A stretch of 24,472 bases of DNA from a virus. The stretch covers positions 1-24,472 of the IMG/VR virus record IMGVR_UViG_3300020057_000149. The stretch is one strand, 5' to 3'. Under the pieces are notes generated by a model, which was not told the origin of the DNA, did no database searches, and saw nothing but the letters and a program-made list of their open reading frames with translations. Position numbers and translations under genes: made by a program. Positions within the stretch are counted from its first letter, which is position 1. Every line of letters starts with the position of its first letter. This document shows, in pieces, positions 6,684 through 24,004 of this stretch.

Positions 6684-7604
6684 TTAGGTCAATGAACTGG
6701 GGATGCCCAGTGCGAGTAGGTTCGATTCGGTGTAGAAGTCAAAGGTCAGTTCCACAGGCTCGTCGAGGTCGCTCAACGGCTCGCCGTCTTTCAGAAAGAC
6801 CCGCGTATTTTCATCGTTGACATCCTTAAATTGGATGTAGTTTTGCGGGTTGGCTTTGTCGATACCCCCATCCGCAGTCCAGACCCCCTCGATCCACTGC
6901 CCACGGATCACCTTGTTGCCCTCGTCGACGATCTTCCGCGTGAACTTTTCAAAATCGACATCGAATTCATATCCGATGGTATAGTAGTAGGAGCACGTTC
7001 CATATAGCTGACGCTGCCACGAGACAGCGGACAGCTTGATCGAGCGTGCTTCGAGATCCCAAAGCGTCGCATCGTTGACCGTGTCCATCGCATAGCTGAA
7101 CAACCCGAGCGGCAAGGACAGCGAGTTGAATTCAATGTTGACGGTTGGTCGGTTGTAATCCCGCTCGACTTGCTTGCCGCGGAAGAGTTCAAAGGACGAA
7201 TTCTTGACAGCGTTGCCGTCCTTGTCGAATCGTGCTTCCTTCGTGTACTTCACGAACGACCCCGACAAGCGAGGAGGTTCGTCCAATGGATTCTCGATCT
7301 GCGTGTCCTGGCAGCGTGACAGCGGCTCGGTCGTAAACTTCTGCTCGCAGATCCAGAGCACGCAGGGCTCCCCCGGCGTCATCATCTGGAACTTCCAGTC
7401 CGGCCAGCAGAGCGCAGACGCATCACTATCATTTCCAAACGCCCAGGGAGACCCGATCGCGGGAAGTCCCGGGGTGTTCAGAATCGTTTGCGGGCCATCG
7501 TCGGGGTCCGTCGATTCGACAAGCCACTTGGCCGTGTACTCTCGATGGCCTTCCTTGTTGCGGCCGAGACCCCATTCCAACATTCCTAGGACTGCACTGC
7601 TCAT
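6684..7604 (-). CDS. Distal tail or baseplate-like structural protein
   Basis: A 306-residue soluble protein encoded immediately after the tape measure gene; its ATG overlaps the tape measure stop as ATGA, so translation is probably coupled. It begins MSSAVLGMLEWGLGRNKEGH and is rich in Trp, Tyr and Phe, with alternating strand-like segments (YYYTIGYEFDVDFEKFTRKI, VELTFDFYTES). In siphoviruses the gene after the tape measure usually encodes the distal tail protein. The length of about 300 residues fits that, but I see no diagnostic motif, so the assignment rests on position. It could also be a tail-associated hub component. Confidence 0.6.
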   Translation of the reverse strand: MSSAVLGMLEWGLGRNKEGHREYTAKWLVESTDPDDGPQTILNTPGLPAIGSPWAFGNDSDASALCWPDWKFQMMTPGEPCVLWICEQKFTTEPLSRCQDTQIENPLDEPPRLSGSFVKYTKEARFDKDGNAVKNSSFELFRGKQVERDYNRPTVNIEFNSLSLPLGLFSYAMDTVNDATLWDLEARSIKLSAVSWQRQLYGTCSYYYTIGYEFDVDFEKFTRKIVDEGNKVIRGQWIEGVWTADGGIDKANPQNYIQFKDVNDENTRVFLKDGEPLSDLDEPVELTFDFYTESNLLALGIPSSLT

Positions 7605-10600: not shown

Positions 10601-10783
10601 CGTAATGCGAGCACCCTCCGCAAGGACAGCGTTGCGAGACGCGATCGCCTTGTTGGCTTCGTTCTCGATCTGCTTGACCTTTTGGATGATTTGCTTTACC
10701 GACTCATCCATGACCTTGTCAAAGTCAGTCGCATCTCCCAGGATGCGGACAATCATGGTCTCGATCTCGGCGGCAGAACTCAT
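7601..10783 (-). CDS. Tail tape measure protein (TP901 family)
   Basis: At 1060 residues this is the longest gene, in the usual place after the tail chaperones; its length sets the tail length in siphoviruses. Residues ~190-530 match the TP901-type core as I know it, including a KFDKTMTES start, FLAQAGYTAEQS and the GAMRPVADIIGGLEKALGPM segment near 420-440. A long hydrophobic region follows at about 543-640 (IAAVLAVLGPLAVTFGTIVT), as expected for membrane insertion during DNA entry. A motif of the type TPTExF...LNSLLxxGxIT occurs three times, at about 66-98, 136-170 and 912-950. The gene begins with ATGA over the GT stop and ends with ATGA over the next start. Confidence 0.93.
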   Translation of the reverse strand: MSSAAEIETMIVRILGDATDFDKVMDESVKQIIQKVKQIENEANKAIASRNAVLAEGARITEAVATPTERFAEESKRLNSLLAQGAITGQTWNRAMAAARSTLPQVAAAQKAVAQATERHNADMARATSLVSSLMTPTEQYRKKLAELNSLYQRGYISSQTYARGVAALGREFATAQKYMSMAASQLRSVGGLMTSVGMRMTVGLTAPLTLLGSVAVREMAKFDKTMTESIAIMGKVSTETRGQMEAAAIAIAKITPNAPEEAARAFYFLAQAGYTAEQSIKQLPIVADYATASAQSMEKAVEQLSDAQSIMGLTSKDPIENMKQMARVADVVTEAANRSKASQEQFAKALATKSGSALRLVNKSLEEGTAILMAYAEVGIRGELAGEKLDIMLRELDRGVRTHGETWKKLGMDVYDASGAMRPVADIIGGLEKALGPMTDEQRQATLSQLGFRSQSKAAVQALFGQSQAIRDFEKGLQSAGGAVKRMSDEQLKSFSNQLKILQNQLIVVAMDIGKILAPAIMWVNDRIKEGIKWWESLSLTAKQVIVGIAAVLAVLGPLAVTFGTIVTVVAGFVALLASITTVGLAVAVGLASVAAQIVAFGAAIAYAVYQIVGAEGLMNIWETITAKVYSFVVAAVGFLMHLSENIEILTTWLWENWFNLLTDLVSLWGISFASFYGYVAVALETAFRLFIAWQGWLVGLFKRLFSVEFLQAVWSGIKAAGELFVKFAQSAWEALKAAFSGGSFSMEDLAKQMGSDFDKGAANLNFLETAADIMGEQAGKLKNPLDTFTSSIAEGPKFNLTIPGQEMGQKLADGVVDGAKAVLDKAPLKEEVNKFVSELATEIEELTAKLKEQVLTYGMSSEEADIFKLATKGATDAQLAEARALSATIKALDEDKKLKEKAKQIIEKSLTPAEKFNEVQKELELMLKKGHLTAEQFQKAMADARKDLSKDIKIKVNMTGLDALEAGTLEAADRLAKYREMIYTGQFHAPDIGPAARVAPAPQPVAPNDQKPIPVEDVQGKGKGGDGEEKYETKVVDLLTIIARNTNPDKNTFAPANL

Positions 10784-11133
10784 TTTTCCTCCTCGGGACG
10801 GACGCCCATTGATTGCAACCAGGCGCCCTTAGAGCGTGCGAGACGTTCCTCTGGCGAGAGATTCGACCAGTCGGCTTCGGGCTTGACGTCCTTAAACTTC
10901 AAGATGAAGGCGCCCATTTTCACACGCTTGGGATACTTCGCTCGACCGCGTACCACTTCGCACGCGATCTGGGCAAGGTAGTGGTCGGTCCTGCTTGGAA
11001 TGTTCCAGAGACGCTTGAGGAAAAGACGCCACTTCACAAAGTCGGTCGACGTCGTTTCCTGCTTGCATCGCTGCAAGCTCATCCCTAGCTCATGCGCAAG
11101 CAGGAGCCACTCCAACTCCTCGCCCGCTAGGAG
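10780..11133 (-). CDS. Tail assembly chaperone GT extension made by -1 frameshift
   Basis: This frame has no credible start of its own. It is entered from the end of the upstream G-like gene by a -1 slip on A AAA AAC at 11133-11139; reading then continues from CTC at 11133 to a TGA at 10780-10782, adding 117 codons and giving a fusion of about 265 residues. The T part includes LLLAHELGMSLQRCKQ and a conserved-looking WNIPSRTDHYLAQIACEVVR. In lambda-like phages the GT product recruits tail tube protein onto the tape measure; that role is family knowledge. The stop overlaps the tape measure start (ATGA). A TTG at 11115 gives a separate ORF but lacks a convincing ribosome binding site. Confidence 0.85.
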   Translation of the reverse strand, partial: LLAGEELEWLLLAHELGMSLQRCKQETTSTDFVKWRLFLKRLWNIPSRTDHYLAQIACEVVRGRAKYPKRVKMGAFILKFKDVKPEADWSNLSPEERLARSKGAWLQSMGVRPEEEK

Positions 11134-11576
11134 TTTTTTGCCTCTTCCTCTTCATCGGCTTTCTTCTCGGGATCGAGCCGGGACAGCTTCTTCGCGACCT
11201 TGTCCAACTGCTCGAGGACAGAGGCCGGCCATTTCTGCATGGTCGCCTGGGGCACAAACTTGCCCGTGGAATTGTCGACGAGGCAGAGTGCGAGCAGATC
11301 GGTCTGGACACCGTCGAAAGACTTCACGCCTTGCAGCTTGCCTCCGACGTAGTTCGCTCGCTTGCTCGACTTGGTGAAGAACATATCCCGACCCGCCCCG
11401 TCGAGTTCGACGATACGGCACGACATCTCGACGATCTTGGGCGAGTTGTCAGCGTCGAGGACGATCGTACCGTCCACTTCTTCGGGGACCTCGAACTTCA
11501 CGGGAACGGACTTTTTCACGAGCTTGAACACGAGCACGCCATCGGCATCCGGCTGGACATCTTCATGGTCTGACAT
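11127..11576 (-). CDS. Tail assembly chaperone G-like protein
   Basis: I start it at the ATG at 11576 (149 residues), where AAGGAAG stands about 8 nt upstream; an ATG at 11594 lacks a ribosome binding site. The protein has a beta-like N-terminal half and a charged C-terminus (DPEKKADEEEEAKNS) that ends right after the slippery heptamer. Length, position between tail tube and tape measure, and the frameshift into the GT frame together identify it as the lambda gpG counterpart, which acts with GT as a chaperone for tail tube assembly and is absent from finished virions. A strong hairpin at 11609-11650 precedes it. Confidence 0.84.
   Translation of the reverse strand: MSDHEDVQPDADGVLVFKLVKKSVPVKFEVPEEVDGTIVLDADNSPKIVEMSCRIVELDGAGRDMFFTKSSKRANYVGGKLQGVKSFDGVQTDLLALCLVDNSTGKFVPQATMQKWPASVLEQLDKVAKKLSRLDPEKKADEEEEAKNS
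11133..11139 (-). promoter_or_regulatory. Programmed -1 ribosomal frameshift site (A AAA AAC)
   Basis: The minus-strand codons GCA AAA AAC at the end of gene G contain the canonical X XXY YYZ heptamer in the correct phase. GAGGAAGAGG lies just upstream and could act as a stimulatory Shine-Dalgarno-like element. A 5-bp hairpin (CTCCT with AGGAG, 11116-11133) follows directly. The zero-frame stop is at 11127-11129, two codons after the slip. Confidence 0.88.
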
Positions 11577-11596
11577 TGGCTTGGCTTCCTTCATAG

Positions 11597-11650
11597 AAGA
11601 GAGAAAAGGCGACGGCTGGCGATCGAATCTCGATCAGTCCCAGCCGTCGC
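11597..11650 (-). terminator. Terminator-like hairpin between tail tube and chaperone G
   Basis: GCGACGGCTGG at 11609-11619 pairs exactly with 11640-11650, and a second 6-bp stem (11621-11626 with 11630-11635) sits within. On the minus strand the hairpin is followed by CTTTTCTCTCTTCT. It starts 39 bases after the tail tube stop. Partial termination here would lower chaperone and tape measure expression relative to capsid and tube. Confidence 0.75.
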
Positions 11651-11688
11651 AGAGCGTCACAAAACGCAGAGCAGCGGTCGAGAGTCGA

Positions 11689-12114
11689 CTAAGCTGCAGC
11701 AGTGTAGACGGGAGCCGTCTCCACGCCTGAATCGTTCTGGTTGCTGCAAATGATGGTGAAGTCCGCCGTGGGCTGCTCGCCCTCGACCGACTCGCCCGGA
11801 GTGAACGCATCCAGCCAGCCCCAGAAGGCAAGCGAGGCCCCGTCCGAAAACGTGATGGTAATCAGCTGGTTCTGGCCGATCATCGTCACGATGTCATTAT
11901 AAACGACGGGGTCGTAGGCAGCGGTTCCGCTGCACTCGCCCAGCGTCTTCAAGAGCTTCGGCGCCTTCGTGCGCCAGGTCGTGTTGCGCATCGTCGTGGT
12001 GTCATTCTCACCACCCGCCTCGATGCTCGGAGGCGTGACCGACTTCTCATAAAACGCCGGAGTGGCGAGCGAGAAGGTAATCAGTGTGGAAAAACCGTCG
12101 TCAAGACGACTCAT
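11689..12114 (-). CDS. Major tail tube protein
   Basis: A 141-residue protein with the size and composition of a siphovirus tail tube subunit, followed by the G/GT chaperones and the tape measure in the standard order. A segment like NDTTTMRNTTWRTKAPKLL is followed by SFSDG/FWGW-type strands (LITITFSDGASLAFWGWLDA) and GESVEGEQPTADFTI, which fits the tail tube beta-sandwich pattern I know from this gene position. Its ribosome binding site AAAGGAG lies in a possible small hairpin (12118-12130) with AGGAG in the loop. A strong hairpin follows the stop, as expected for a highly expressed structural gene. Confidence 0.82.
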   Translation of the reverse strand: MSRLDDGFSTLITFSLATPAFYEKSVTPPSIEAGGENDTTTMRNTTWRTKAPKLLKTLGECSGTAAYDPVVYNDIVTMIGQNQLITITFSDGASLAFWGWLDAFTPGESVEGEQPTADFTIICSNQNDSGVETAPVYTAAA

Positions 12115-12117
12115 GGT

Positions 12118-12130
12118 TAAACTCCTTTTA
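12118..12130 (-). promoter_or_regulatory. Ribosome binding site hairpin of the tail tube gene
   Basis: On the minus strand TAAA-AGGAG-TTTA forms a 4-bp stem with the whole AGGAG in the loop, three bases before the ATG at 12114. AAGGA in the loop fits the ANGGA core recognised by CsrA proteins. Confidence 0.4.
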
Positions 12131-12183
12131 TTCCTTTTCTTGGGTTCAGATCGCGAGCACGCTACGGGCGAGCACGCTCGTGG

Positions 12184-12783
12184 TTAGTTGTAGGCAGCCC
12201 CGACCCGCATCGTCTTGGCCGACACGTCCCCGTGGGAGAAGTAGACCACGGAGATCGTGTCCCCCGCGATCGGGTTGACATCACCGCAATCCTCATACCA
12301 GACATAAGCCAGGCTTGCCAGATCGAAAACGCGGGTCAGATCATTTTCGAGGATGATCGTACCCAAAGCGGACTCGCTGAACATGGTCAGGCCTACCATG
12401 TCGTCGCCCACGACGTTGAAGACCTCGGTCAGCGGCACCATGACCGTGACAGCCGTGGCAGCAGTCGGCAGAGCGTCGCCGGTGCAATTGTCGATGGGCA
12501 CGACGAGTGTCGCGACCGTGCCGGCCGACGGGCACACGGCTCGTTTGTTGACGCCGGCATCCACCCAATAGATATGCAGCAGATCACCGGTAAGCACGCC
12601 ATGGCTCGCTGCGAGCGTGAGCGACCCGGTATCCGCGTCCGTTCGCACGGTCAAGACACCGGTCTTCGCAGCCGGGACACTCTTTTCGACGACAACGCCG
12701 ACGTCAGCGGTAATGGACTTCTGCTCGGCAAACGTCTTGCCGCTAAGCCCAATGGACTTCGTAACGGTCATGGTAATCGACAT
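12184..12783 (-). CDS. Structural protein between tail terminator and tail tube
   Basis: A 199-residue beta-rich protein beginning MSITMTVTKSIGLSGKTFAE, with many Thr, Val and Gly residues and short strands such as VLTVRTDADTGSLTLAASHG. AAGGAG stands 7-8 nt before the ATG at 12783. No membrane segment or signal peptide. Its place between the terminator and tube genes and its composition suggest a virion component, perhaps a second tube-like or decoration protein, but I know no name for it. The 70-base gap after it holds an 11-nt direct repeat (GCGAGCACGCT) and no clear terminator. Confidence 0.65.
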   Translation of the reverse strand: MSITMTVTKSIGLSGKTFAEQKSITADVGVVVEKSVPAAKTGVLTVRTDADTGSLTLAASHGVLTGDLLHIYWVDAGVNKRAVCPSAGTVATLVVPIDNCTGDALPTAATAVTVMVPLTEVFNVVGDDMVGLTMFSESALGTIILENDLTRVFDLASLAYVWYEDCGDVNPIAGDTISVVYFSHGDVSAKTMRVGAAYN

Positions 12784-12796
12784 AGGACTCTCCTTG

Positions 12797-13222
12797 TCAA
12801 ACGGGGTTGATGGTCAAACGTGAGTTGATGGTGAACAACGGGCGCCGATTCTTGGGCTCATATCCGATATGGAACGGGTTGCCCGTTCGTGCTGACTGGA
12901 TCGAGTAGGTTTGATCTCCGACGATTGCGATCTCGCTGCGAAGGATCGAGTTCAGTGCAGCTTCCACGTCCTTCAGCTTCGTCCATCCTACGGGATAGGT
13001 TAGTGCTCGCAGCTTGATCTGGATCCTGGGATGTTCAATGCGTTCTCCGGTCGTCATGATGCGTCCGTCGGGGACTCCGGGCAGATCGTAGATGGACGCA
13101 GCGAGATCAGGAGAAGCGGGGAGAGACGACACGTAAATAGGCCAATCTCCGGCCAGCGAGAAAACACCCTGGGCGATGAGCCAGCGTGCTAAGATCTTCG
13201 CGGGTGGAGTGTTCAGAGGCAT
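12797..13222 (-). CDS. Tail terminator (tail completion) protein
   Basis: About 141 residues, starting at the ATG at 13222 or at a TTG at 13228 that overlaps the previous stop as TTGA; neither has a strong ribosome binding site, so coupling to the gp10-like gene is likely. A central stretch SIYDLPGVPDGRIMTTGERI followed by HPRIQIKLRA resembles the minor capsid/tail terminator family seen at this position in HK97-like phages. Such proteins form the ring that stops tail growth and joins the tail to the head. Order (connectors, gp10-like, terminator, tube) supports the call. Confidence 0.72.
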   Translation of the reverse strand: MPLNTPPAKILARWLIAQGVFSLAGDWPIYVSSLPASPDLAASIYDLPGVPDGRIMTTGERIEHPRIQIKLRALTYPVGWTKLKDVEAALNSILRSEIAIVGDQTYSIQSARTGNPFHIGYEPKNRRPLFTINSRLTINPV

Positions 13223-13224
13223 GG

Positions 13225-13578
13225 TCAATCACTGGTATCTAAAAGGATGTCTCGAATCTCTGCCTTGTGCTCGATCAAGATCCGCTCGAGGTACTTCGCT
13301 GTCTTTCCCGGAGCGTGCTGCGCGTCGAGATCCTCGTGAACGTAGATGGCGTAATCCATCGTGTATCCGACAATCCCAACGGTCTTCGACCCTTTGCCTT
13401 CCTTTCGGGTGAAAGCACTATTCCTAAGTGCCCCAGTGTCGACGGGCACAATCTTCTGGCTTTCCTTTTGAATGTAGAGGCACGTCCGAATGACGTTTCT
13501 TTCCTGTTGCTTCGCCTTTTGCTTCTTCAAAGCCCGGATTGTCTTGATGAGATGCGTTACCCCGTCAACGCGAGTCAT
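13225..13578 (-). CDS. HK97 gp10-like head-tail connector protein
   Basis: 117 residues with a basic helical N-terminus (IRALKKQKAKQQERNVIRTC), then VPVDTGALRNSAF, GYTMDYAIYVHEDLDA and APGKTAKYLERIL. The VDTGxLRxS motif followed by a YAxYVxxxxxxHAPGKTAKYLE-type segment is the signature of the HK97 gp10 family of head-tail joining or tail completion proteins. GAGG-type sites precede the ATG at 13578 (AGGAGG, 6-7 nt). It overlaps the next gene by a few bases, fitting a single translated cluster of joining proteins. Confidence 0.85.
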   Translation of the reverse strand: MTRVDGVTHLIKTIRALKKQKAKQQERNVIRTCLYIQKESQKIVPVDTGALRNSAFTRKEGKGSKTVGIVGYTMDYAIYVHEDLDAQHAPGKTAKYLERILIEHKAEIRDILLDTSD

Positions 13579-13587
13579 CGAAGCCTC

Positions 13588-13929
13588 CTACAGATAAACG
13601 GTTCGGAGGAACTCGCGAGCATTCAACTTGGGCAACTTCTCGACTCGCAGGATCTCCCAGGAACTCACATTGGCAAACGGATCAGCGTCAGCGTCCGCAA
13701 GCAACCCGAGCCAGAGAACCCCTCCGACTGCCAGGTCACGATCAACGTATACGCGAGCCTTGCTCATCACTTCGCGACCATCCATTGTGATGATCTGGGA
13801 AATGACGTCTTCCCATCGGCAAGCTATCTCGATCGCAGCAGCAGGAACAGGCTGTCCGAACTCGTTTGCAGCGGCTTGAGGAGCCCAATAGACTGCGGTC
13901 TGCTTCCGCATCCGGGTGATGATGCCCAT
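13588..13929 (-). CDS. Head closure (stopper)-type protein
   Basis: A 113-residue protein, ATG at 13929 with GAGGAG 7 nt upstream; that site overlaps the end of the previous gene. It starts MGIITRMRKQTAVYWAPQAA and contains RWEDVISQIITMDGREVMSK and ARVYVDRDLAVGGVLW, a small beta barrel-like pattern seen in SPP1 gp16/HK97-type head closure proteins at this position. The gene order, directly after an adaptor-like protein and before a gp10-like protein, fits. The family assignment rests on pattern and order rather than a catalytic motif. Confidence 0.68.
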   Translation of the reverse strand: MGIITRMRKQTAVYWAPQAAANEFGQPVPAAAIEIACRWEDVISQIITMDGREVMSKARVYVDRDLAVGGVLWLGLLADADADPFANVSSWEILRVEKLPKLNAREFLRTVYL

Positions 13930-13932
13930 GGT

Positions 13933-14364
13933 CTACTCCTCATCTTCGCAGCAGGTTTCATCGGAAATGAGCTGCCGACACTTGTTCCCTAGGAAGGAAA
14001 TGGTTGCAACGTAGGCTACCTTGCCTTCGTTTGCGAGCCTGTCTTGCAGAGCGAGCCCGCCCGCAGTGTCGAGACGCTTCGCCTGTTGCCCGTATCGCGT
14101 AACGTCTAGGCCCAGATCCACCTTCGACTCAAAGCGTTCACGAACGGCGCCGGCTGCCTCTTCTGATGCGCGAGGGGCGAGGATACAGAAGAAATGGGCA
14201 GACAACCACCGCTCGATCAATTCGAGCTTCGCGTCCGTATAGCCTGCTGTCAGACAGCACGCATCCACCATGGAGTTCGCTGCCTCGATGAAAGGGGTCA
14301 GGTCAGTCGAATCGTCATTGGAGACGATCGCTTCCACTGCCACTTGAGTCGTGCGAACTGCCAT
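13933..14364 (-). CDS. Head-tail adaptor protein (DUF4054/gp15-like)
   Basis: A 143-residue mainly helical protein: LTPFIEAANSMVDACC, then AKLELIERWLSAHFFCIL, then VDLGLDVTRYGQQAKRLDT. The pattern LIERWLxAHF plus the VTxYGQQAxxLDT segment is one I associate with DUF4054-type head-tail adaptor proteins, which bind the portal ring and widen into the neck. Its place right after the capsid block supports this. The C-terminus ends with paired Cys and acidic residues (CCEDEE). The portal itself is not in this window. Confidence 0.75.
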   Translation of the reverse strand: MAVRTTQVAVEAIVSNDDSTDLTPFIEAANSMVDACCLTAGYTDAKLELIERWLSAHFFCILAPRASEEAAGAVRERFESKVDLGLDVTRYGQQAKRLDTAGGLALQDRLANEGKVAYVATISFLGNKCRQLISDETCCEDEE

Positions 14365-14383
14365 GGGATGCTTCCTTGTGTTT

Positions 14384-14403
14384 GCCGGGTTTAACCGCCC
14401 GGC
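14384..14403 (-). other. Small GC-rich stem-loop between capsid-accessory and adaptor genes
   Basis: GCCGGG (14384-14389) pairs exactly with 14398-14403 across an 8-nt loop, in the 48-base gap between the acidic protein and the adaptor gene. No U-tract follows, so it may be an mRNA end or processing signal rather than a terminator. Confidence 0.35.
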
Positions 14404-14412
14404 GTCGGGTTG

Positions 14413-14916
14413 CTACTTGACCAGATCAGCGATGAACTTCTCAACGGCCTTCTTGCTCGTCAACTTGCTCGCGTTCTTCTTCACGTCGGGGCTGTCAGCC
14501 TCGGCAACGAAGAACTGGAGACCTTTCTGCAAGACCAACAGGTCGTTGTCCGTCGCGAGCTTGTACTCCGCGGACACGTCCTTGCCGAGCTTCGATGCTT
14601 TCGCGACGACAGCGGGAGCCTTCTTTTCTTCCTCTTCCTCCTCGTCGCCGTTGTCCTCGAGGTCGTCCTCGTCGATCAGTTCTTCTTCGTTTTCCTCGAC
14701 GGGGTCGATCTCGTCAGCCTTAGGCGGCGGGGGAGGGGGAGGGGGTGAGACCTTCTTCGCGTACCGCTCGGAGACTTCCTTGAACTTGTCCACTCCAAAC
14801 ATGGTGACCAGATCGCTCGCGGTTGCGATGACAGCGCCCGCGTGATAAGTCTCCTTCTTCTCGGCATGACAGCCGATCAGGAGTTTGAAGTACCGGACCT
14901 TGAGTGCTTTCGCCAT
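14413..14916 (-). CDS. Acidic capsid-accessory protein with a polyproline run
   Basis: 167 residues in three parts. Residues 1-55 are a small domain (VRYFKLLIGCHAEKKETYHA, then DLVTMFGVDKFKEV). Residues 58-65 are eight consecutive prolines, then a strongly acidic linker to about 98 (EENEEELIDEDDLED, EEEEEE). The C-terminal part (KDVSAEYKLA.NDLLVLQKG, LTSKKAVEKFI) looks helical. Such N- and C-terminal modules occur in proteins encoded between capsid and connector genes in other phages, but the function is unknown to me. Eight prolines in a row would be expected to need elongation factor P for translation. GAAGGAAG precedes the ATG. Confidence 0.66.
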   Translation of the reverse strand: MAKALKVRYFKLLIGCHAEKKETYHAGAVIATASDLVTMFGVDKFKEVSERYAKKVSPPPPPPPPKADEIDPVEENEEELIDEDDLEDNGDEEEEEEKKAPAVVAKASKLGKDVSAEYKLATDNDLLVLQKGLQFFVAEADSPDVKKNASKLTSKKAVEKFIADLVK

Positions 14917-14966
14917 GGCTTGCTTCCTTCTTGAGAAGATGCGTAAAAGGAAAGATCAGAGAACTA

Positions 14967-14988
14967 GGGAGGGTGGATGTCCCCTCCC
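14967..14988 (-). terminator. Stem-loop after the major capsid gene, weak terminator candidate
   Basis: GGGAGGG at 14967-14973 pairs exactly with 14982-14988, loop 8 nt. It lies 20 bases after the capsid stop in a 92-base gap. The downstream minus-strand sequence (TAGTTCTC) is only moderately U-rich, so it could be an mRNA stabiliser. Confidence 0.4.
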
Positions 14989-15008
14989 ATTGTCTCGTCG
15001 CTCGAGGC

Positions 15009-16091
15009 TTACGCCACGAGCCCGTGAACGATGCCGGTATTGCCGTTGGAGTCGGCACGATACTGCGGCACGAGGATGCAGAGGACCTTGAAATTGACCT
15101 TGAAGGGAGTCGGCTCCCACTGGACGGTCGTCATCTCCATGCCGACGACCGTGCGGATGATGTCGCTGCTCATCTGCACCAAGCAGATGGTCCCGGTGGG
15201 CAGATAGTCCAGGGTTTGCATGCCCTGGAAGCCATCGACCATCAGGATCCGCTTGCGCAGCGTGTTGTCGCCCTTGGCAGCCGAGTAGTCGGCGTCCAGG
15301 TACTTGTCCCACGAGGTGGAGTTGAAAAGCATCCACGGCCCGTAGTGGTACGCCAGCTGCGACTGCTCCTTCATGGCGAGCAGTTCGTCCAGCAGCACGT
15401 CGGGAGTCCAGCCCGGCGAAGCGGGACTGGTCAAGGTCTTGGTCATGCGGCTCGGGAAGGTCGTGAGACCGTACACGTAGCCACCGCCGTACTTGTACCC
15501 CGACGAGAAAGTGCCGAGATGCAACTTCTCGACAGCTTCCGAGACACGACGCGAGGCCAACTCGGCCGTGGTCGTGTCGAGCGGGCTGCCGCCGTTGCGG
15601 GAAGCGGCCAGCTGTCGCGTGTTGAAGCTGAAATCCTTGTGGATGATCGGCAGAGGCAGATTCGTGAGATCGAAGACCGGGCGGTCGTTCGGGGTCTCGG
15701 CCTCCGGGTTCATCGTGATGGACGCTTCGTTGATGTCCGTTTGGGTCTCGTGCTGCAAAACGGTCTTTCCGAAACCGTTCGGGATCACGTAGTTCAGACC
15801 GGCACCACGAACGGCGGACACGAAACGTAGACGAGGCTTGGCGACCTTGATGATTGCGGCATCCAGGTGCACCCAGTCGTCCTTGCGCAGAGCGGCAGTG
15901 ATGCCGGTATTCTGCACGCAGATGACCTTGTCCTCTCGCTTGCGAGTCTCCGGGTTGAAGACGTTCTGGAGAATGTAGCTCCGCCCGTCTTCACCCCGCC
16001 ACGGACGCAGGACGTCCGTGTCAAAGTCGTGGTCGAGCAGTGCATTGGCAACGCTGCCCTGGCCCTGCCCATTCAAAATGAAATCCAGCAT
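15009..16091 (-). CDS. Major capsid protein (HK97/encapsulin-like fold)
   Basis: 360 residues from the ATG at 16091, which has AGGAG 8 nt upstream; a TTG two codons earlier is less likely. It follows the protease-scaffold and decoration-like genes, the standard order. The C-terminal third has LRKRILMVDGFQGMQTLDYL then GTICLVQMSSDIIRTVVGME, like the A-domain end of HK97-fold capsid proteins in which a cargo/encapsulin-like VxxSxxIxRxVxGxE motif occurs. An N-terminal arm rich in Asn/Asp (NALLDHDFDTDVLRPWRGED) and a central SFNTRQLAASRNGG segment (E-loop or P-domain region) fit. The ribosome binding site can fold into a hairpin with AGGAG in the loop (16095-16109). Confidence 0.88.
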   Translation of the reverse strand: MLDFILNGQGQGSVANALLDHDFDTDVLRPWRGEDGRSYILQNVFNPETRKREDKVICVQNTGITAALRKDDWVHLDAAIIKVAKPRLRFVSAVRGAGLNYVIPNGFGKTVLQHETQTDINEASITMNPEAETPNDRPVFDLTNLPLPIIHKDFSFNTRQLAASRNGGSPLDTTTAELASRRVSEAVEKLHLGTFSSGYKYGGGYVYGLTTFPSRMTKTLTSPASPGWTPDVLLDELLAMKEQSQLAYHYGPWMLFNSTSWDKYLDADYSAAKGDNTLRKRILMVDGFQGMQTLDYLPTGTICLVQMSSDIIRTVVGMEMTTVQWEPTPFKVNFKVLCILVPQYRADSNGNTGIVHGLVA

Positions 16092-16094
16092 GTT

Positions 16095-16109
16095 CAAAAC
16101 TCCTTTTTG
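16095..16109 (-). promoter_or_regulatory. Ribosome binding site hairpin of the major capsid gene
   Basis: CAAAA-AGGAG-TTTTG on the minus strand forms a perfect 5-bp stem with the entire AGGAG in a 5-nt loop, three bases before the capsid ATG (16091). AAGGA is a match to the ANGGA core of CsrA sites, and a csrA gene is present at 23263-23607. Confidence 0.45.
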
Positions 16110-16168
16110 TTGTTGTCGTCGACTTACGTGCCGGCGATCAGTGAACCAATCAGAAGCGGGCAGGGAGA

Positions 16169-17104
16169 CTACACGCAGCGAGCTTGGATGAACGCCTCGG
16201 CGGCAACGGCCGAGTTATCCACGGCTTCCTCAGCCATGAACAACACTGCCGAGGGGGTGACCCGCTCGATCGTGATGGTCTGGGCCTGAATCGCGACCGT
16301 GCAAGTGGCGGTGGTAGCCGACCACGTGGCACTCGCCTTGATGACCTTGGTCGCGGTCGTGTCGATCGTGGTCGAGCCGAGGAAGAACGGCAGAGCAGTC
16401 GCCGTTCCGGGAACGCCGTTCGCCACAAACCCGTAGGCGACGAACGTGCCCGAGGCACCGATCGTCCGCACGACGAGGTTGATCTCCCATTCAACCACGT
16501 CGCCGGCCGTCGCATTGACGGCAGCGGTCGCGGTGATGAGTTGCGAACCGATATAGAACTTCACGGTCAGAGTGTCGGTGCCAGCGGCAGCAGACACGAC
16601 AGCGAAGCCCTTGATCTTCAAAATGTCGCCGACCTGCAGGAAGTTCGCGGGGACCGTGTAGGTCTGCGAAAAATCCTGTTCGGTCGAGACCGAGTTGGTC
16701 ACGTCGGTCGACGCGGCAGCGCTCGCGTACAACGTGTGGCTGCCATTGCTCGACGGCTTGACCAGCGTTCCATCGCCGTTGCTAATGAGCGTGTCGCCCA
16801 CCACGACTGCCGAAGCATTTGCGGGGAGACGACAGAGGAACAGATCCCCGGGGATGGGCATCTGGTACGGCACGACATCATCGACGGCGTAGGCGTCCAT
16901 GATGTTTCGATTGGCGTTCTGGTAGCCGCTCAACCGATCCTCGATCGCAACGAGGACAGGACCGTTCCCGCCGTAGGTCGCATGCTTGAGAATCTTGCCG
17001 TCGCTGTCGAGCTTGCCCATGTGGCCCGGCTTGATGATCCCCGAGGCAACCGCCTCGCGGTACCGGCCGTGAACGATCAGGCCGATGGTGTTGGGAGTGG
17101 TCAT
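16169..17104 (-). CDS. Capsid decoration or head-fibre-like protein
   Basis: 311 residues from the ATG at 17104, chosen because AAGGAGAG stands just upstream; an in-frame start 20 codons earlier lacks a ribosome binding site. The N-terminal ~130 residues (TIGLIVHGRYREAVASGIIK, PGHMGKLDSDGKI, LVAIEDRLSGY, PGDLFLCRL) look like the compact beta domain of phage head decoration proteins (DUF2190 type) encoded next to the capsid gene. From about 140 on it is Thr/Ala/Val-rich and probably a jelly-roll-like domain (VGDILKIKGFAVVSAAAGT, VVEWEINLVVRTIGASG). Surface display on the capsid is inferred from position and composition. Confidence 0.72.
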   Translation of the reverse strand: MTTPNTIGLIVHGRYREAVASGIIKPGHMGKLDSDGKILKHATYGGNGPVLVAIEDRLSGYQNANRNIMDAYAVDDVVPYQMPIPGDLFLCRLPANASAVVVGDTLISNGDGTLVKPSSNGSHTLYASAAASTDVTNSVSTEQDFSQTYTVPANFLQVGDILKIKGFAVVSAAAGTDTLTVKFYIGSQLITATAAVNATAGDVVEWEINLVVRTIGASGTFVAYGFVANGVPGTATALPFFLGSTTIDTTATKVIKASATWSATTATCTVAIQAQTITIERVTPSAVLFMAEEAVDNSAVAAEAFIQARCV

Positions 17105-17174
17105 TAAAACTCTCCTTGGGTGGTGTTGTTTGAACGCTATGGAAAAAGTGATGCGAGACGACACGCCCAGAAGA

Positions 17175-17693
17175 CTACTTGGGCAGATCGTAGCTCAACG
17201 GAGTGCGGGGCAGGGGAGCTTCGTTGTGGACGGTCGGGGACACGCTGACGGGACCGCCCTGGGCGCCTGCGTAGTTCAAGACGGGAGCAGGTGCCGAAGA
17301 GGCGACGGTCAAAGCGACCATGCCTTTCAGCTCCTCGATCGGACGGGTCATCAGATGGGCCTTCGTGAAGATGTTCGACTTGTTGGCGACAATCTTGTCG
17401 GCCAGGTCGGACTTCGCGGTCACTTCGGCAGCCATCGAGTTGCGAATGCTCGCGGCAACCTCGGGATGCATGCCGGCGAGCGTTTCCTCGATGGAGGGAA
17501 CCTTGTTCACAACGGGGGCGACGACGGGCTGCAAAATCGCCGGGGTCGTCGGGGGAGTCTGCTCGGGCTTCTTGGTCGTGTTCGCGACGAGCTTGGTCAG
17601 CTTCTCCTCGCTGAACACTTCGAGGGTCACGCGATCCGCTTCCTCGAAGGCGCCGTTGGCGACCAGCGAGTCAATCAGGAGCTTCTTGGACAT
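17175..17693 (-). CDS. Nested scaffold protein from an internal in-frame start
   Basis: An in-frame ATG at 17693 (codon 298 of the protease gene) has AAGGAG 9 nt upstream, giving a 172-residue product with the scaffold part only (MSKKLLIDSLVANGAFEE to the common stop). A second ATG at 17732 also has AGGAG 6 nt upstream but lies in a 9-bp hairpin. This is the arrangement of lambda C/Nu3, in which a protease gene contains a separate start for the scaffold. Two supporting facts are sequence-level (ribosome binding sites and position at the domain border); production of the short form is inference. Confidence 0.62.
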   Translation of the reverse strand: MSKKLLIDSLVANGAFEEADRVTLEVFSEEKLTKLVANTTKKPEQTPPTTPAILQPVVAPVVNKVPSIEETLAGMHPEVAASIRNSMAAEVTAKSDLADKIVANKSNIFTKAHLMTRPIEELKGMVALTVASSAPAPVLNYAGAQGGPVSVSPTVHNEAPLPRTPLSYDLPK

Positions 17694-18584
17694 GGGTAAT
17701 GTCTCCTTGGTGGGGGTGTTGGAGACGCTCATTAGCGTCTCCTGATTCAGAGTCAAATAGGAAGTCGAGCGATAGACTTCCTCAGGGCTGTCACCGATCG
17801 TCGTTTTCTGATCGCTCGACGTGTAGGACAGTTTGTAGGACGTGTCCTTCAGCCGGTATACAAACCAGCTGTCGAATACGGCCTCGATATAAGCGTTATA
17901 GCCCTCACGGGCTTGGAGAAGGGAGTAAAGTTCGGTCGTGATCTCTCCGTAGGACTTGAGGTTCGTCACGATCACGCCGGCGCCTGAAAGGGCGTGCAAG
18001 CGTGCTCGATCAAACTCGTCCACCTCGACGACCCCGTCCGCGTTGCGAAGCAAGCCAGCACCCGCAGCAAGCGAGCACGCTCCGACTTGATCGGGGAGGA
18101 TTGCAAGATGATCCGGCTGGAAGTTGCGAACGATACCCTTGTAGGCAACCCCCGCGAACTCACCTTCCGCTACATCGATCTCGCAGCCCAACCCAGTGCT
18201 GATCTCGACTGCCTTATTGGCAACGAGGTTTTCGATAATCCGCTTGTCGATCTCGCAGCAGCGAGCGACATCGATCCATGCTTCCGTCTTGAGCTTGGGT
18301 CCCTTATACGTGGTGTTGAGAATGACTCCCACCTTCCGCGTGTTCAGGATGTGCGGGTCACACGCGCTCGCCCCTTCCGCAGGGTGATAGACGACAAGCG
18401 GTTTATGATTCCACACGCTCGGGGCTTTCCCAAGCTCGGCGCCCGAATAGAAGAGAGGTCCCGCGCTGCCGTTCAGCACGCCCTCCACGATCATCACTGC
18501 CGGGACCACGAGATGCTCGCGGCCTTCCAGTTGTTCGTAGCGGCTTTTGCCGCCGAGGTTCATGATGAATCGGACATTTTTCAT
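17175..18584 (-). CDS. Prohead maturation protease fused to scaffold
   Basis: A 469-residue protein opening the virion operon. Residues 1-~190 are a DUF2213-type protease domain: PLVVYHPAEG, VEISTGLGCEI, then PDHLAILP with a His at 159 and GACS with a Ser at 171, the likely catalytic His and Ser of a herpes/HK97-type maturation protease. Residues ~285-469 look like a scaffold: helical, charged, with a PVVAPVVNKVPS linker and a Pro-rich C-terminus. Inside, two ATGs (285 and 298) have ribosome binding sites, so free scaffold is probably made too. The start at 18584 follows GGAGAAG and the promoter at 18611-18639. Confidence 0.85.
   Translation of the reverse strand: MKNVRFIMNLGGKSRYEQLEGREHLVVPAVMIVEGVLNGSAGPLFYSGAELGKAPSVWNHKPLVVYHPAEGASACDPHILNTRKVGVILNTTYKGPKLKTEAWIDVARCCEIDKRIIENLVANKAVEISTGLGCEIDVAEGEFAGVAYKGIVRNFQPDHLAILPDQVGACSLAAGAGLLRNADGVVEVDEFDRARLHALSGAGVIVTNLKSYGEITTELYSLLQAREGYNAYIEAVFDSWFVYRLKDTSYKLSYTSSDQKTTIGDSPEEVYRSTSYLTLNQETLMSVSNTPTKETLPMSKKLLIDSLVANGAFEEADRVTLEVFSEEKLTKLVANTTKKPEQTPPTTPAILQPVVAPVVNKVPSIEETLAGMHPEVAASIRNSMAAEVTAKSDLADKIVANKSNIFTKAHLMTRPIEELKGMVALTVASSAPAPVLNYAGAQGGPVSVSPTVHNEAPLPRTPLSYDLPK
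17721..17742 (-). promoter_or_regulatory. Hairpin masking an internal start between protease and scaffold
   Basis: GGAGACGCT at 17721-17729 pairs perfectly with 17734-17742; the 4-nt loop carries the ATG of codon 285 and the stem includes its AGGAG. It lies just upstream of the second ribosome binding site (17703-17708), so it would hide the first start and leave the second free. Confidence 0.6.
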
Positions 18585-18610
18585 TGGAACTTCTCCATGT
18601 GAGGTGGCAC

Positions 18611-18639
18611 AATCTATGGACGACTTGTCGGCGTGTCAA
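18611..18639 (-). promoter_or_regulatory. Promoter of the head and tail operon
   Basis: On the minus strand a perfect TTGACA (18634-18639) and TAGATT (18611-18616, four of six) are separated by 17 bases. Initiation would fall near 18604, about 20 bases before the protease start. It lies directly after the stop of the membrane coiled-coil gene, at the border between the exported-protein block and the virion genes. Confidence 0.65.
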
Positions 18640-18642
18640 CAC

Positions 18643-19131
18643 CTAGCCGATGGGCAAAGGGGTCGCGGACGGTGGATCGTCGTCTTCCGAATGGGGGAGA
18701 ATCGTAGTTGGACTGGAAAGACGTCGTTTGATCTCACTATCGCTTGCAAGCTGCTGCGCCTGATGGGCAGCCATTTGCACAAGGAGTTCTGCGAGTTCTG
18801 CCTGCCTCTCTCGCGAGATAATGCCTGATTTTCGCGCGTCGAGGATCTCTTGTTTGAGCGACAGGATTTTCTCATTGAAGCCATTCGCTGTCTTGAATGC
18901 TTCGCGACTGACCTCAGTATTCTTGTCGACGTTCTGGTTGATCCCCTTGGCAAGCTCGTCCGTATGGGTGATGAGCTTGCGGGTTTGCTCTGCGATCTCT
19001 TGCTCCCGACGGACTCGATCCTCTGCATCCCATTTCCGGTTCCGCTTTTCTCGCCACGCCGAAAAGACAGCCGTGAAAATCGTCATTATCATGGTAATGA
19101 CTGCAATTGCAGTCGAGGGATCCGATTCCAT
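18643..19131 (-). CDS. Membrane-anchored coiled-coil protein, possible holin-like or spanin-like
   Basis: 162 residues. Residues ~7-25 (TAIAVITMIMTIFTAVFSAW) form one transmembrane segment followed by a basic stop (REKRNRKW). Residues ~35-130 are a long charged helix with heptad-like spacing (EQEIAEQTRKLITHTDELAK, EKILSLKQEILDARKSG), ending in a Pro/Ser/Asp-rich tail. GGAG precedes the ATG at about 10 nt. The architecture, one N-terminal anchor plus coiled coil, occurs in lysis proteins and in other phage membrane proteins; no diagnostic motif decides. It is the last gene of the exported-protein block. Confidence 0.6.
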   Translation of the reverse strand: MESDPSTAIAVITMIMTIFTAVFSAWREKRNRKWDAEDRVRREQEIAEQTRKLITHTDELAKGINQNVDKNTEVSREAFKTANGFNEKILSLKQEILDARKSGIISRERQAELAELLVQMAAHQAQQLASDSEIKRRLSSPTTILPHSEDDDPPSATPLPIG

Positions 19132-19162
19132 CGAAAAGACTCCAGAAGACTAGGAAAGAGGA

Positions 19163-19195
19163 ACGTCTCGCGAGTAAGTCACGCTCGCGAGACGT
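19163..19195 (-). terminator. Terminator-like hairpin after the DnaJ-type zinc protein
   Basis: ACGTCTCGCGAG at 19163-19174 pairs exactly with 19184-19195 (12 bp, 9-nt loop). On the minus strand TTCCTCTTTCC follows. It starts 20 bases after the stop at 19215. The U-tract is interrupted, so termination may be partial. Confidence 0.6.
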
Positions 19196-19214
19196 CTCGA
19201 GGCATCCATCGCCT

Positions 19215-19661
19215 CTAGCGACCTAGCAGCCTTCGGAACGGCCCCGATGAGGAGGGGCGTCCGCTGCTCGATCGTGTACTGGTACTGCACTGACCGCTGG
19301 CACAATCACCGGCCAGAGCTTTTGAGGGAGTCGACGCGCGAACGGAAGGGGGATCTACCGGAGCCTGTCCGTTCGGAAGACGAGGGACGACAGCTTGAGC
19401 ACCCCCGGGGCTCGTCGTTTTCTTGCCTGAGCCCTTGCATACGGGGCACACGACGAAAACCGTCCCATCTCCCAGTTTCCCCACCCCGTCGCAGTTATCG
19501 CAGACGCTAGAGGGCTTTACGGGCGGATTAGGGGTAGGAGACGGCTGAGGAGAGGGGCTCGCGTGCAAAGCAACGATCCCAGCAGCAAGTTCGAGGAACT
19601 CGCCCGCAGCAGCCGGAGACGCGATCGAGCACACGAGCACGAGGACCAGTAGACGTTTCAT
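19215..19661 (-). CDS. Secreted protein with one DnaJ-type zinc-binding pair
   Basis: 148 residues. Residues 1-20 (MKRLLVLVLVCSIASPAAAG) are a signal peptide; the VLVCS could also serve as a weak lipobox. A Pro/Ser linker follows, then CDNCDGVGKLGDG at 54-66 and CPVCKGSGKK at 72-81: two CxxCxGxG motifs, one zinc site of the DnaJ type, separated by only ten residues. The C-terminus is Ser-rich with a CASGQC pair and ends in a basic FRRLLGR. It is not a DnaJ because there is no J domain. Export plus a zinc ribbon suggests an envelope role, but the substrate is unknown. It lies between the small 94-residue gene and the membrane coiled-coil gene. Confidence 0.7.
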   Translation of the reverse strand: MKRLLVLVLVCSIASPAAAGEFLELAAGIVALHASPSPQPSPTPNPPVKPSSVCDNCDGVGKLGDGTVFVVCPVCKGSGKKTTSPGGAQAVVPRLPNGQAPVDPPSVRASTPSKALAGDCASGQCSTSTRSSSGRPSSSGPFRRLLGR

Positions 19662-19698
19662 GGGTTCTCCCTTGAAGGAGGGATGAGCGACGACGAGA

Positions 19699-19983
19699 CT
19701 AGCCGCCAGGTGCGGGGACAGTCACAAAGTCGAACATTGGGGAAAGAGCATCGACGAGGTCCGCGGCAGTGTCTTCTTCCGAATCGAAAGCGTCCCCGCC
19801 TACGGAAGTCACGGAAGCCAGCGGCAAGTCAAACGACCCGAAGCCTGCCCCGCAGATCTTCACGAGATCGCTTGCCGCTGCGACGATGCAATAGGCACCG
19901 GGCGTGAAGATGGCGATGGTGACGTCAGCGTCATCCGTGATGATGACATTGGTCGTGGTGGTTGTGTCCTTGCTGATCTTCAT
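19699..19983 (-). CDS. Small phage protein of unknown function
   Basis: 94 residues from the ATG at 19983, which has AGGAG 9 nt upstream; a longer in-frame extension would run into the preceding intergenic hairpin and is rejected. Sequence begins MKISKDTTTTTNVIITDDAD, then beta-like VTIAIFTPGAYCIVAAASDL, and an acidic C-terminus (DSEEDTAADLVDALSPMFDF). No signal peptide. I do not recognise it. It sits between the cysteine peptidase and the secreted zinc protein, separated from the peptidase by a short terminator-like hairpin. Confidence 0.6.
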   Translation of the reverse strand: MKISKDTTTTTNVIITDDADVTIAIFTPGAYCIVAAASDLVKICGAGFGSFDLPLASVTSVGGDAFDSEEDTAADLVDALSPMFDFVTVPAPGG

Positions 19984-20011
19984 TTCGCGTCTCCTAGGTA
20001 AGGGGTGTTTC

Positions 20012-20031
20012 AAAAGGGCCTTCCGTGGCCC
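20012..20031 (-). terminator. Short terminator-like hairpin after the cysteine peptidase
   Basis: GGGCC at 20027-20031 pairs with 20016-20020 around a 6-nt loop, and TTTT follows on the minus strand (20012-20015). The 103-base gap (19984-20086) between the peptidase stop and the next gene holds nothing else clear except GC-rich repeats of GCTCGC. Confidence 0.5.
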
Positions 20032-20086
20032 ACGACACGCATCCTTGCGGCCGCTGCGGGCGAGCCAGTGCCCAGCGAGCGGGACT

Positions 20087-21160
20087 CTAACCGACCAAAA
20101 GCGAGAACTCGGGGAGCTTCTTCGCGGGCCATCCCGCAGCACCCGAGAGGGCAAGGCAAAGGCGATTCTTGACATCGCTCCACCGGGCCCAGAAAGCTCC
20201 TTCGGGGATGTCAATATTCGTCCCCATGATGCGACGCGGACCGGTGTTCCACTTGCCCCAAGAATTGAGGATGAGGACGAGCGGCTCCCCATACTTCGCC
20301 ACAATGATGTCACGCTCGTCGACCCCGATCACTGCAAGCGCGTGCGACCAGCTTCCGCTGCGACGACTCACACCGTTCTCGTCACGCTGATTGGAGAAAC
20401 CCTCGCCGCCGCACGTTGTCAGCCCGAAGCCGTTCGCGAGGTAATCACACCACTCGCGAAGCGAACGCAATCGCGTGGCAGTGCGAATCAAGTGCTCCTG
20501 GCCAGCCTTCGTGAACTCAGGAGGGGGAGCCGTTCGACCGTACTGACCGGCGAGCTTGCCTGAATACTTGCGAAGATCGACGTTTATCTCCGGATAGTTG
20601 TTCCGCAGCCAAAGCCCCGACTTACTGCAAGCGATTTGGGCCGCCGCGTCGCACGACCAGCCATCGCCTGAGTATCCTCGATACCAGTAGATGGCTTCCG
20701 TGGAGAGGGCTCCATTTTTGATACCGTCGGGATCGATGATCGGGGCGCCCTCGATCTTCCCAGTGACCTCGTCAGGCTTGCCGCTTGCAATGTCGCAAGC
20801 CATCGTGAGCAGAGCGGCATTCTTCGTGGAATGGGCGACACAATCGCCTCGTTGCTGCGCAGCACCGGGCCAGCACCCCGGGAAAAGCTGCTCGACAAGA
20901 CGGTAAGGGATGACGAGCTTGCCTTCGCCTGCTCCCGTCAGCGAGTTTGCGTCCGAGACACGTCGACCGTCCAGATCCCCGAAAGGCTGGGCGACGATGA
21001 ACGACTCGAAAACTTCTGTCGCAGCAGGATCGTGCCAGACACCGGCATAGCCGTCCTTGTAAGTCTGCTCGATCTTCTCGGGAACGAGATCGACAGCACC
21101 TTCAGGCCACCACGAGAACGATCGCGGAAGGAAAGCAGATTTGGGACGAATCAAGGGCAT
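20087..21160 (-). CDS. Papain-like (C1 family) cysteine peptidase
   Basis: 357 residues. The papain triad can be placed: QQRGDCVAHS gives the oxyanion Gln (102 or 103) and nucleophile Cys107; GSWSHALAVIG gives His273; LILNSWGKWNTG gives Asn299 in the NSWG motif. No signal peptide is obvious; the N-terminal ~90 residues may be a propeptide or a docking part. GGAG stands about 7 nt before the ATG. Family membership is well supported. Whether it is an internal head protein, a lysis or envelope-degrading enzyme or a host-directed protease is unknown; its neighbours are exported proteins, and no peptidoglycan hydrolase is nearby. Confidence 0.85.
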   Translation of the reverse strand: MPLIRPKSAFLPRSFSWWPEGAVDLVPEKIEQTYKDGYAGVWHDPAATEVFESFIVAQPFGDLDGRRVSDANSLTGAGEGKLVIPYRLVEQLFPGCWPGAAQQRGDCVAHSTKNAALLTMACDIASGKPDEVTGKIEGAPIIDPDGIKNGALSTEAIYWYRGYSGDGWSCDAAAQIACSKSGLWLRNNYPEINVDLRKYSGKLAGQYGRTAPPPEFTKAGQEHLIRTATRLRSLREWCDYLANGFGLTTCGGEGFSNQRDENGVSRRSGSWSHALAVIGVDERDIIVAKYGEPLVLILNSWGKWNTGPRRIMGTNIDIPEGAFWARWSDVKNRLCLALSGAAGWPAKKLPEFSLLVG

Positions 21161-23121: not shown

Positions 23122-23162
23122 CTTGCTTCTCCAAAGGACAAAGGGAATGAGTATGCCTCTCG

Positions 23163-23211
23163 ACCGCCCTGCTTGTCGTTCACGGGAGGTGTTAGGACAA
23201 GCAGGAGCGGT
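23163..23211 (-). other. Long stem-loop in the gap after csrA
   Basis: ACCGC at 23163-23167 pairs with 23207-23211 and CCTGCTTGTC at 23168-23177 with 23196-23205: a 15-bp stem with one bulged base (23206) and an 18-nt loop. On the minus strand the loop reads TAACACCTCCCG, including the anti-Shine-Dalgarno core CACCTCC. An outer 6-bp stem (23157-23162 with 23223-23228) is possible. No U-tract follows, so it is not an ordinary terminator. The rest of the 141-base gap (23122-23262) shows nothing else clear. Confidence 0.6.
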
Positions 23212-23262
23212 GAGAAGCAAGCCGAGAGAATCTAAAGAGGTGAGGGGTTGGCAGTCAATAGA

Positions 23263-23607
23263 TTACCACATCCCCTCAAGCGGACTCGAACGAGGCAGGG
23301 GAGCTTCGGTGTGCGACTCCACGCCCTTCGCAGCGGCCTCATAAGCATCGGAGAGACGCGAATTGAGGTCACACGCTTGCATTTCGACGTCCGCGAGCTC
23401 CGCGAGTTTGCGGAGCTCGAAAACTTCTTCGCGATCGATGCGAACATGGTCAGGAGCAACGCTGCCGATCCTTACCTTGTCGCTGCGAAGCTGGACCACC
23501 GTCAACGTGATGCGGCATCCTTCACCGTGCTCGGCGAGCATCTTGACGGTCTCGGGCGAGAGGCTATAGATGATTTTCTCGCCATTCTTCCGTGACAGAA
23601 CCAACAT
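23263..23607 (-). CDS. csrA: CsrA-type RNA-binding translational regulator with insertion and tail
   Basis: 114 residues from the ATG at 23607, one base after an AAGGAGG-bearing hairpin. MLVLSRKNGEKII matches strand 1 of CsrA, with Leu4 and Arg6, and ITLTVVQLRSDKVRIGSVAP followed by VRIDREEVFE matches the rest of the core; Arg59 corresponds to the RNA-binding Arg44 of E. coli CsrA. Between them are about 15 extra residues (YSLSPETVKMLAEHGEG), and a ~45-residue charged tail follows. CsrA normally has about 61 residues, so both additions are unusual. CsrA binds GGA in RNA hairpin loops and usually blocks ribosome binding. The gene lies 16 nt after the DUF3820-like gene. Phage or host targets are unknown. 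Confidence 0.88.
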   Translation of the reverse strand: MLVLSRKNGEKIIYSLSPETVKMLAEHGEGCRITLTVVQLRSDKVRIGSVAPDHVRIDREEVFELRKLAELADVEMQACDLNSRLSDAYEAAAKGVESHTEAPLPRSSPLEGMW

Positions 23608-23608
23608 T

Positions 23609-23622
23609 GCAATCCTCCTTGC
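23609..23622 (-). promoter_or_regulatory. Hairpin with GGAGGA loop over the csrA ribosome binding site
   Basis: GCAA-GGAGGA-TTGC on the minus strand: a 4-bp stem with the ribosome binding site in the loop, ending one base before the csrA ATG. AAGGA spans the stem/loop border. This is the geometry of CsrA autoregulation sites; the stem is short, so it needs the protein or other contacts to be stable. Confidence 0.5.
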
Positions 23623-23623
23623 G

Positions 23624-24004
23624 CTACCGTTGCCTATCCATGAATCGTTTACAACCAACGTACCGCTTCAACTGCTGCGTGAACTCTCCTTCCAGTAAGC
23701 TGACAAAGTAGGAAGGGGCGACGTCGCCTACCTTCGAGTTACGATGGATGCCGAAGGGCATGACAGTATCCTCAAAACGCGATGCCTCGCGATCGCTCAT
23801 CTTGTCACTGGGCCCATCCATCACGAGCTTCATTCCGAGGTGTGCTGCTGCTTGCGTCGCAACGCACTCCCAGAAGCGGTCCTCATCGACCGTAACATCT
23901 CGGGTCGAGTGCATCCGCATGGAGTCTTGAGCGAAGGAAAGGCATTCACTGGCAGCGAGACGCGCTGCCATGTTAGCTTTTATCTCCAGTTTATCCTTGC
24001 TCAA
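23624..24004 (-). CDS. DUF3820 / ExoX C-terminal-like domain protein
   Basis: 126 residues from a TTG at 24004, chosen because AAGGAG stands 7 nt upstream; an internal ATG 11 codons in has a poorer site. The C-terminal third (from ~82: MPFGIHRNSKVGDVAPSYFV, then LLEGEF...LKRYV) matches the short DUF3820/ExoX-C pattern of MPFGKxKGxxxxDVPxxYLxWLL with a basic patch in which Arg/Lys substitutions occur. This small domain occurs in exonuclease X and many phage proteins and probably binds nucleic acid. The N-terminal part is helical and has no exonuclease motif, so no nuclease activity is claimed. Directly upstream of csrA. Confidence 0.75.
   Translation of the reverse strand: MSKDKLEIKANMAARLAASECLSFAQDSMRMHSTRDVTVDEDRFWECVATQAAAHLGMKLVMDGPSDKMSDREASRFEDTVMPFGIHRNSKVGDVAPSYFVSLLEGEFTQQLKRYVGCKRFMDRQR

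Follow-up and report, generated by a model that had tools for sequence, protein, structure and literature searches.

Within the CsrA family, a helix inserted into the core is described in the literature found for Pseudomonas only, in RsmN and RsmF (e.g. PMC3791407). The RsmN helix of 16 residues lies between strands 2 and 3, sterically blocks the pairing of these strands in one sheet and redirects the chain. The result is a dimer of docked, non-swapped monomers in which the RNA-binding surface is preserved. RsmN and RsmF still dimerise and bind GGA RNA; RsmN-like proteins have no C-terminal helix and end after strand 5 (PMC3791407). The high-affinity site of CsrA is an ANGGAX hexaloop on a stem, with the GGA at loop offset 2 (PMC4005645), and two-site bridging by CsrA spans distances of 10-63 nt and is best above 18 nt (PMC7652899). 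The gene has been reported in 30 of 2517 phages, and phage and plasmid csrA alleles are already known (PMC7366521). Phage csrA itself is not new.

The stretch of DNA analysed here, the window, comprises a whole IMG/VR virus record of 24,472 bases, linear and probably a fragment. Judged from its genes it is a tailed-phage contig, the tape-measure, head-maturation-protease, neck and major-capsid genes being on the minus strand. The csrA gene (Table 1) is found within about 870 bases of the contig end. A 99.8% identical contig covers positions 7293-20128 only, so that a single contig supports the csrA region. The gene upstream has no Pfam or PHROG match; the short distance from its stop to the csrA start indicates that the two probably form one operon, and translation of csrA may be coupled to that of the upstream gene. 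Fifty records that share the capsid gene were searched. None contains a csrA like that of the window, and a single record (G039, via L043) contains a csrA above the cut-off, encoding an ordinary protein of 78 aa. Because of this rarity the csrA of the window is taken to be accessory. The only capsid match in genome contigs (59% identity) is on a 5.6-kb contig in a Thermoplasmata MAG, which is possibly a binning error or a real link to archaeal viruses. Viruses of Halorubrum and Haloarcula have the capsid family in common with the window, at 22-27%.

Table 1. Features of the csrA locus, with positions in the window.
Feature	Position	Strand	Basis or remark
csrA-family gene, 114 aa, ATG start	23263..23607	-	PF02599 profile match and AlphaFold model
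Insertion of 15 residues, about residues 15-29	23521..23565	-	alignment with CsrA/RsmA
Predicted helix within the insertion, residues 18-27	23527-23556	-	DSSP of the model; fold matches 4kji, 4krw, 4k59
Long C-terminal helix, residues 60-98	23314..23430	-	model; absent from RsmN/RsmF
Weak inverted repeat GCAA-GGAGGA-TTGC around the Shine-Dalgarno sequence, 14 nt	23609..23622	-	sequence; one base before the ATG
AAGGAG, ANGGA motif overlapping the Shine-Dalgarno sequence, candidate CsrA site 1	23615..23620	-	sequence
ATGGAT, ANGGAX motif in the 3' end of the upstream gene, candidate CsrA site 2	23636..23641	-	sequence and class enrichment
Upstream gene, 126 aa, TTG start	23624..24004	-	no family match; stop 16 nt before the csrA ATG

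The csrA gene of the window is real. A Pfam profile search matched its product to PF02599 with E=3e-12 and 46.7 bits, the cut-off being 27, which bears out the clear CsrA core noted in the preliminary description. The NCBIfam cut-offs for the CsrA equivalog were missed (37.1 vs 73 bits for NF002469 and 34.8 vs 70.1 bits for TIGR00202). In the alignment the protein retains L4, S5, R6, R59, which corresponds to E. coli R44, and E61. Eight residues (M1, L2, L4, R6, G48, A51, R59 and E61) are invariant across 61 phage CsrAs, among them the Arg44 equivalent and the strand-1 contacts L4 and R6. The frame is open and is preceded by a good Shine-Dalgarno sequence. Since the RNA-contact residues are kept, the gene does not look like a dying copy; it probably encodes a working regulator, with predicted RNA binding, rather than being in decay. 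The C-terminal tail, put at about 45 residues in the preliminary description, is indeed long and extends about 50 residues beyond the core in the alignment.

The length of the insertion was obtained by alignment to the CsrA/RsmA proteins of E. coli, B. subtilis and P. aeruginosa; the N-terminal half is 15 residues longer than that of E. coli CsrA. An AlphaFold monomer model, built with the 61 phage sequences (mean pLDDT 91, pTM 0.62), has strands at residues 2-7, 12-16, 34-40, 44-50 and 55-59 and the two helices listed in Table 1, which gives the topology b1-b2-alpha-b3-b4-b5-alpha. The insertion had been assigned to the connection between strands 1 and 2. Its size of about 15 residues was correct; its place in the model is after strand 2, between strands 2 and 3. 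When the monomer model was compared with the PDB by Foldseek, the only significant matches were RsmN (4kji, 4krw) and RsmF (4k59), with E values of 2.6e-4 to 1.6e-3, a probability of 1.00 and 35% identity; the best match to an ordinary Csr/Rsm protein was RsmE (2mfc), with E 2.1. With TM-scores of 0.66-0.70 on the target and an rmsd of about 3.6 A, the structural agreement with RsmN and RsmF is moderate, and the match to RsmN is remote, so that the path of the chain may differ from that of RsmN. The sequence alignment of RsmF/RsmN to the window protein spans strand 1 to strand 5, with an E value of 0.10 for the window protein alone and 1.2e-4 for a profile of this protein and its relative on contig L202, described below. 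Ordinary CsrAs align by sequence from residue 30 onward only. In the pairwise alignment with RsmF, 34% of 67 columns are identical (32 bits), and gaps flank the insert on both sides. Matches of the N-terminal fragment to TAL effectors were rejected as artefacts of summing over repeats, at about 2 bits per repeat. The insertion leaves the predicted monomer fold intact and matches the helix of RsmN/RsmF, and the profile, alignment, model and fold matches together support a modified, apparently intact CsrA carried by a phage.

The likeness to RsmN and RsmF of Pseudomonas aeruginosa comprises the helical insert between strands 2 and 3 (about 16 residues there, 15 here), a fold that in the monomer model is closer to RsmN than to RsmA/E, the critical conserved arginine (R62 in RsmN, R59 here) and an Arg/Glu pair, which is the salt bridge R8-E64 in RsmN and corresponds to residues R6 and E61 here. 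There are also differences. The window copy is phage-borne whereas RsmN and RsmF are Pseudomonas proteins; the inserted helix of RsmN ends in Gly-Ile, in place of which a gapped alignment puts Gly30-Cys31; and RsmN ends after strand 5, whereas the window protein runs on into a helix of 39 residues. With the ordinary, domain-swapped CsrA, RsmA and RsmE it has in common the five-strand core, the RNA-contact residues and the C-terminal helix, but these proteins are without the helical insertion. On account of the Gly-Cys pair and the long C-terminal helix, the protein is classified, by its predicted structure, as a member of the CsrA family with an RsmN-type insertion and not as an RsmN.

How common this architecture is among phages was examined by several searches. 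One pattern-based scan of viral contigs confirmed at least 232 phage CsrAs. Among 185 distinct phage CsrAs listed, which were ranked by likeness to the window protein or RsmF and are therefore not a random sample, 138 have no insertion, about 35 have one of 1-6 residues and two have one of 15 residues. The two are the window protein and that of L202, a 245-kb viral contig, so that the search for phage homologues with the same insertion, proposed in the preliminary description, yielded one. The L202 protein has the insertion at the same place and is 43% identical over 63 aa, but it is without the long C-terminal helix; its insertion is weakly helical in a weak structural model, and a fold search from that model matched no Rsm protein. 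Other phage-encoded CsrAs, including RsmM of P. aeruginosa phages and PHROG 9500 and 5527, are likewise carried by tailed phages, but those found mostly have no insertion or one of at most 6 residues. Translated matches to RsmF were absent from 50,697 phage and 72,556 plasmid records, and tblastn of the window protein against the phage collection gave nothing at E<=0.01. Scans of viral and genome contigs with patterns from a single protein returned no relatives, because the patterns fell on variable parts. A separate case was noted on contig L236 (3001-3429, plus strand), where two tandem CsrA domains, the second with an insertion of its own, are found in one open frame, possibly a single-chain CsrA pair. 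In the csrA leader of L236 a canonical AAGGAG loop is closed by a hairpin stem of 5 pairs.

These comparisons bear on a possible, though not a likely, alternative, in which the protein is a domain-swapped CsrA of the ordinary type whose surface insertion is harmless and whose likeness to RsmN/RsmF is due to convergence in an insertion-tolerant loop between strands 2 and 3. The short insertions of the listed phage CsrAs are common at the same place, the protein shares little sequence identity with RsmN, the modelled C-terminal helix is an ordinary CsrA feature, and the insertion of L202 is weakly helical in a model that matched no Rsm protein. Against this, no other fold match comes near RsmN and RsmF, a helix at this position in RsmN is a steric obstacle to the pairing of strands 2 and 3 in one sheet (PMC3791407), and the lengths of the insertions agree. 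An environmental phage with the inserted-helix architecture, together with the insertion of the same length in L202, points to an older or a repeated origin of the rearranged fold and to its use by phages.

The leader of the gene had drawn attention because the Shine-Dalgarno sequence is in the loop of an inverted repeat, which was regarded as the geometry of CsrA autoregulation. The repeat is present before the ATG, but the geometry was not borne out. Alone, the hairpin folds at -2.2 kcal/mol, and at lengths of 46-124 nt the csrA leader of the window does not exceed its own shuffles in stability (z about 0.2-0.8). Hairpins of at least 4 pairs with a GGA in a loop of 5-8 nt were found at 8.7% of 1254 control starts, which were ordinary ATG starts with a GGA-type Shine-Dalgarno sequence from the same loci. 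The GGAs of the GGAGGA loop are at offsets 0 and 3, unlike that of the ANGGAX hexaloop, and this loop register is not enriched in phage csrA leaders. An Rfam search gave no match. The hairpin is close to chance expectation; as it is weak, off-register and unremarkable among ordinary starts, what had been the strongest argument for autoregulation fails by itself.

A better basis is provided by the second ANGGA motif. The GGA of ATGGAT is separated from the downstream Shine-Dalgarno GGA by exactly 18 nt, within the range that CsrA bridges, although a single upstream site is common by chance (ANGGA is present 8-40 nt upstream of 13.9% of control starts). The class of phage csrA leaders, 113-136 non-redundant loci, was compared with other starts of the same loci; the leader test contained 113 non-redundant leaders, with the window left out, and 1243 control starts. 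The NNGGAN hexaloop with at least 3 Watson-Crick pairs, a register fixed beforehand from the literature, was about threefold enriched (12.4% of csrA leaders vs 4.1% of controls, p=6e-4 by one-sided Fisher test on related sequences, as in all the leader tests), and the enrichment persists without the coding bases and under a stricter redundancy filter. The registers with p<0.05 were this hexaloop, the 5-nt loops with offsets 1 and 2 and the 8-nt loop with offset 3, the last of which overlaps the hexaloop register in part by construction. Loop types matching these registers have been described as CsrA-bound (PMC4005645). The 16 other loop registers, when pooled, were not enriched. In 24% of csrA leaders vs 12% of controls, about a twofold enrichment, the Shine-Dalgarno GGA is preceded by another GGA at a distance of 15-21 nt; the p value of 3e-4 is indicative only, since the gap bins were chosen after the 18-nt gap of the window had been seen. 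At this upstream spacing AGG, GAG, GGC, GGT and TCC were not enriched in csrA leaders, and GAA, which is partly contained in GGA-A, was enriched at 1-7 and 15-21 nt.

The class-wide enrichment proves no single case. Combined with the upstream ANGGAX motif it nevertheless makes autoregulation of the window csrA plausible, and this part of the preliminary description is reasonable once the hairpin is replaced as its basis. Of broader reach is the finding for the class: taken together, phage csrA leaders bear sites of the CsrA type at the ribosome binding site, so that autoregulation of phage CsrAs can be tested directly.

The explanation that we consider rather likely is that a tailed phage here encodes a functional translational repressor of the CsrA type, which has a helix-inserted, RsmN/RsmF-like fold and probably limits itself through two ANGGA sites. 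The family, the intact frame, the inserted-helix fold prediction, the kept RNA-contact residues and the class-wide leader enrichment were computed; from these we infer the dimeric form, the RNA binding, the autoregulation of the window copy and targets in phage or host. By binding to GGA motifs in ribosome binding sites, the dimer would occlude these sites and block the initiation of translation. On its own leader it would probably bridge the two candidate sites and so limit its own synthesis. It seems unlikely that the protein acts mainly on the host without autoregulation, by competing with or poisoning host CsrA or by sequestering host RNAs; the known phage and plasmid alleles (PMC7366521) and the unremarkable hairpin would suit such a role, but the position of the ANGGAX motif and the enrichment in the leader class point away from it. 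A more elaborate form of the repressor, which we consider unlikely though conceivable, would be an insulated GGA regulator: the inserted helix would produce an RsmN-like non-swapped dimer that exchanges no strands with the domain-swapped host CsrA, autoregulation would proceed by bridging of two sites, and the C-terminal helix would be a new docking surface. A decaying or non-functional csrA copy is very improbable, as the open frame, the good Shine-Dalgarno sequence, the full set of RNA-contact residues and the confident fold outweigh the missed equivalog cut-off and the dispensability indicated by the capsid-sharing records.

Other possible regulatory sites were seen in the window. Three other starts (2284, 12114 and 16097) have GGA hairpins with 4 or more pairs and a register of the bound type; the control rates predict roughly 0.7 such starts. 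The 134-aa gene at 1880-2284 (minus strand) has its start in a 5-pair hairpin, ATTTG-AAAGGAAA-CAAAT, with the GGA centred; stems like this occur at 5 of the 1254 ordinary starts. The gene is a possible target of the phage CsrA, but it is one of about 28 genes that were examined. At the capsid gene (16097, minus strand) the Shine-Dalgarno sequence is inside CAAAA-AGGAG-TTTTG; a CsrA site at this start was rejected, as relatives of the capsid gene do not retain it. The gap downstream of csrA (23122-23265, minus strand) folds far better on the transcribed strand than its shuffles (z -5.5, 0 of 200). Positions 23122-23131, the ten bases before the ATG of the next gene, with its Shine-Dalgarno sequence, are the exact complement of 23212-23221, a complementarity reached by 12 of 20,000 shuffles, while other starts in the window reach at most 6. 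A search for this hairpin in 2.9 million viral contigs gave 9 matches, which were taken as chance. A competing partner, 23154-23161, takes up the arm at 23212-23221 in the larger share of the ensemble (0.85 vs 0.15), and the two mutually exclusive helices could thus switch the ribosome binding site of the next gene.
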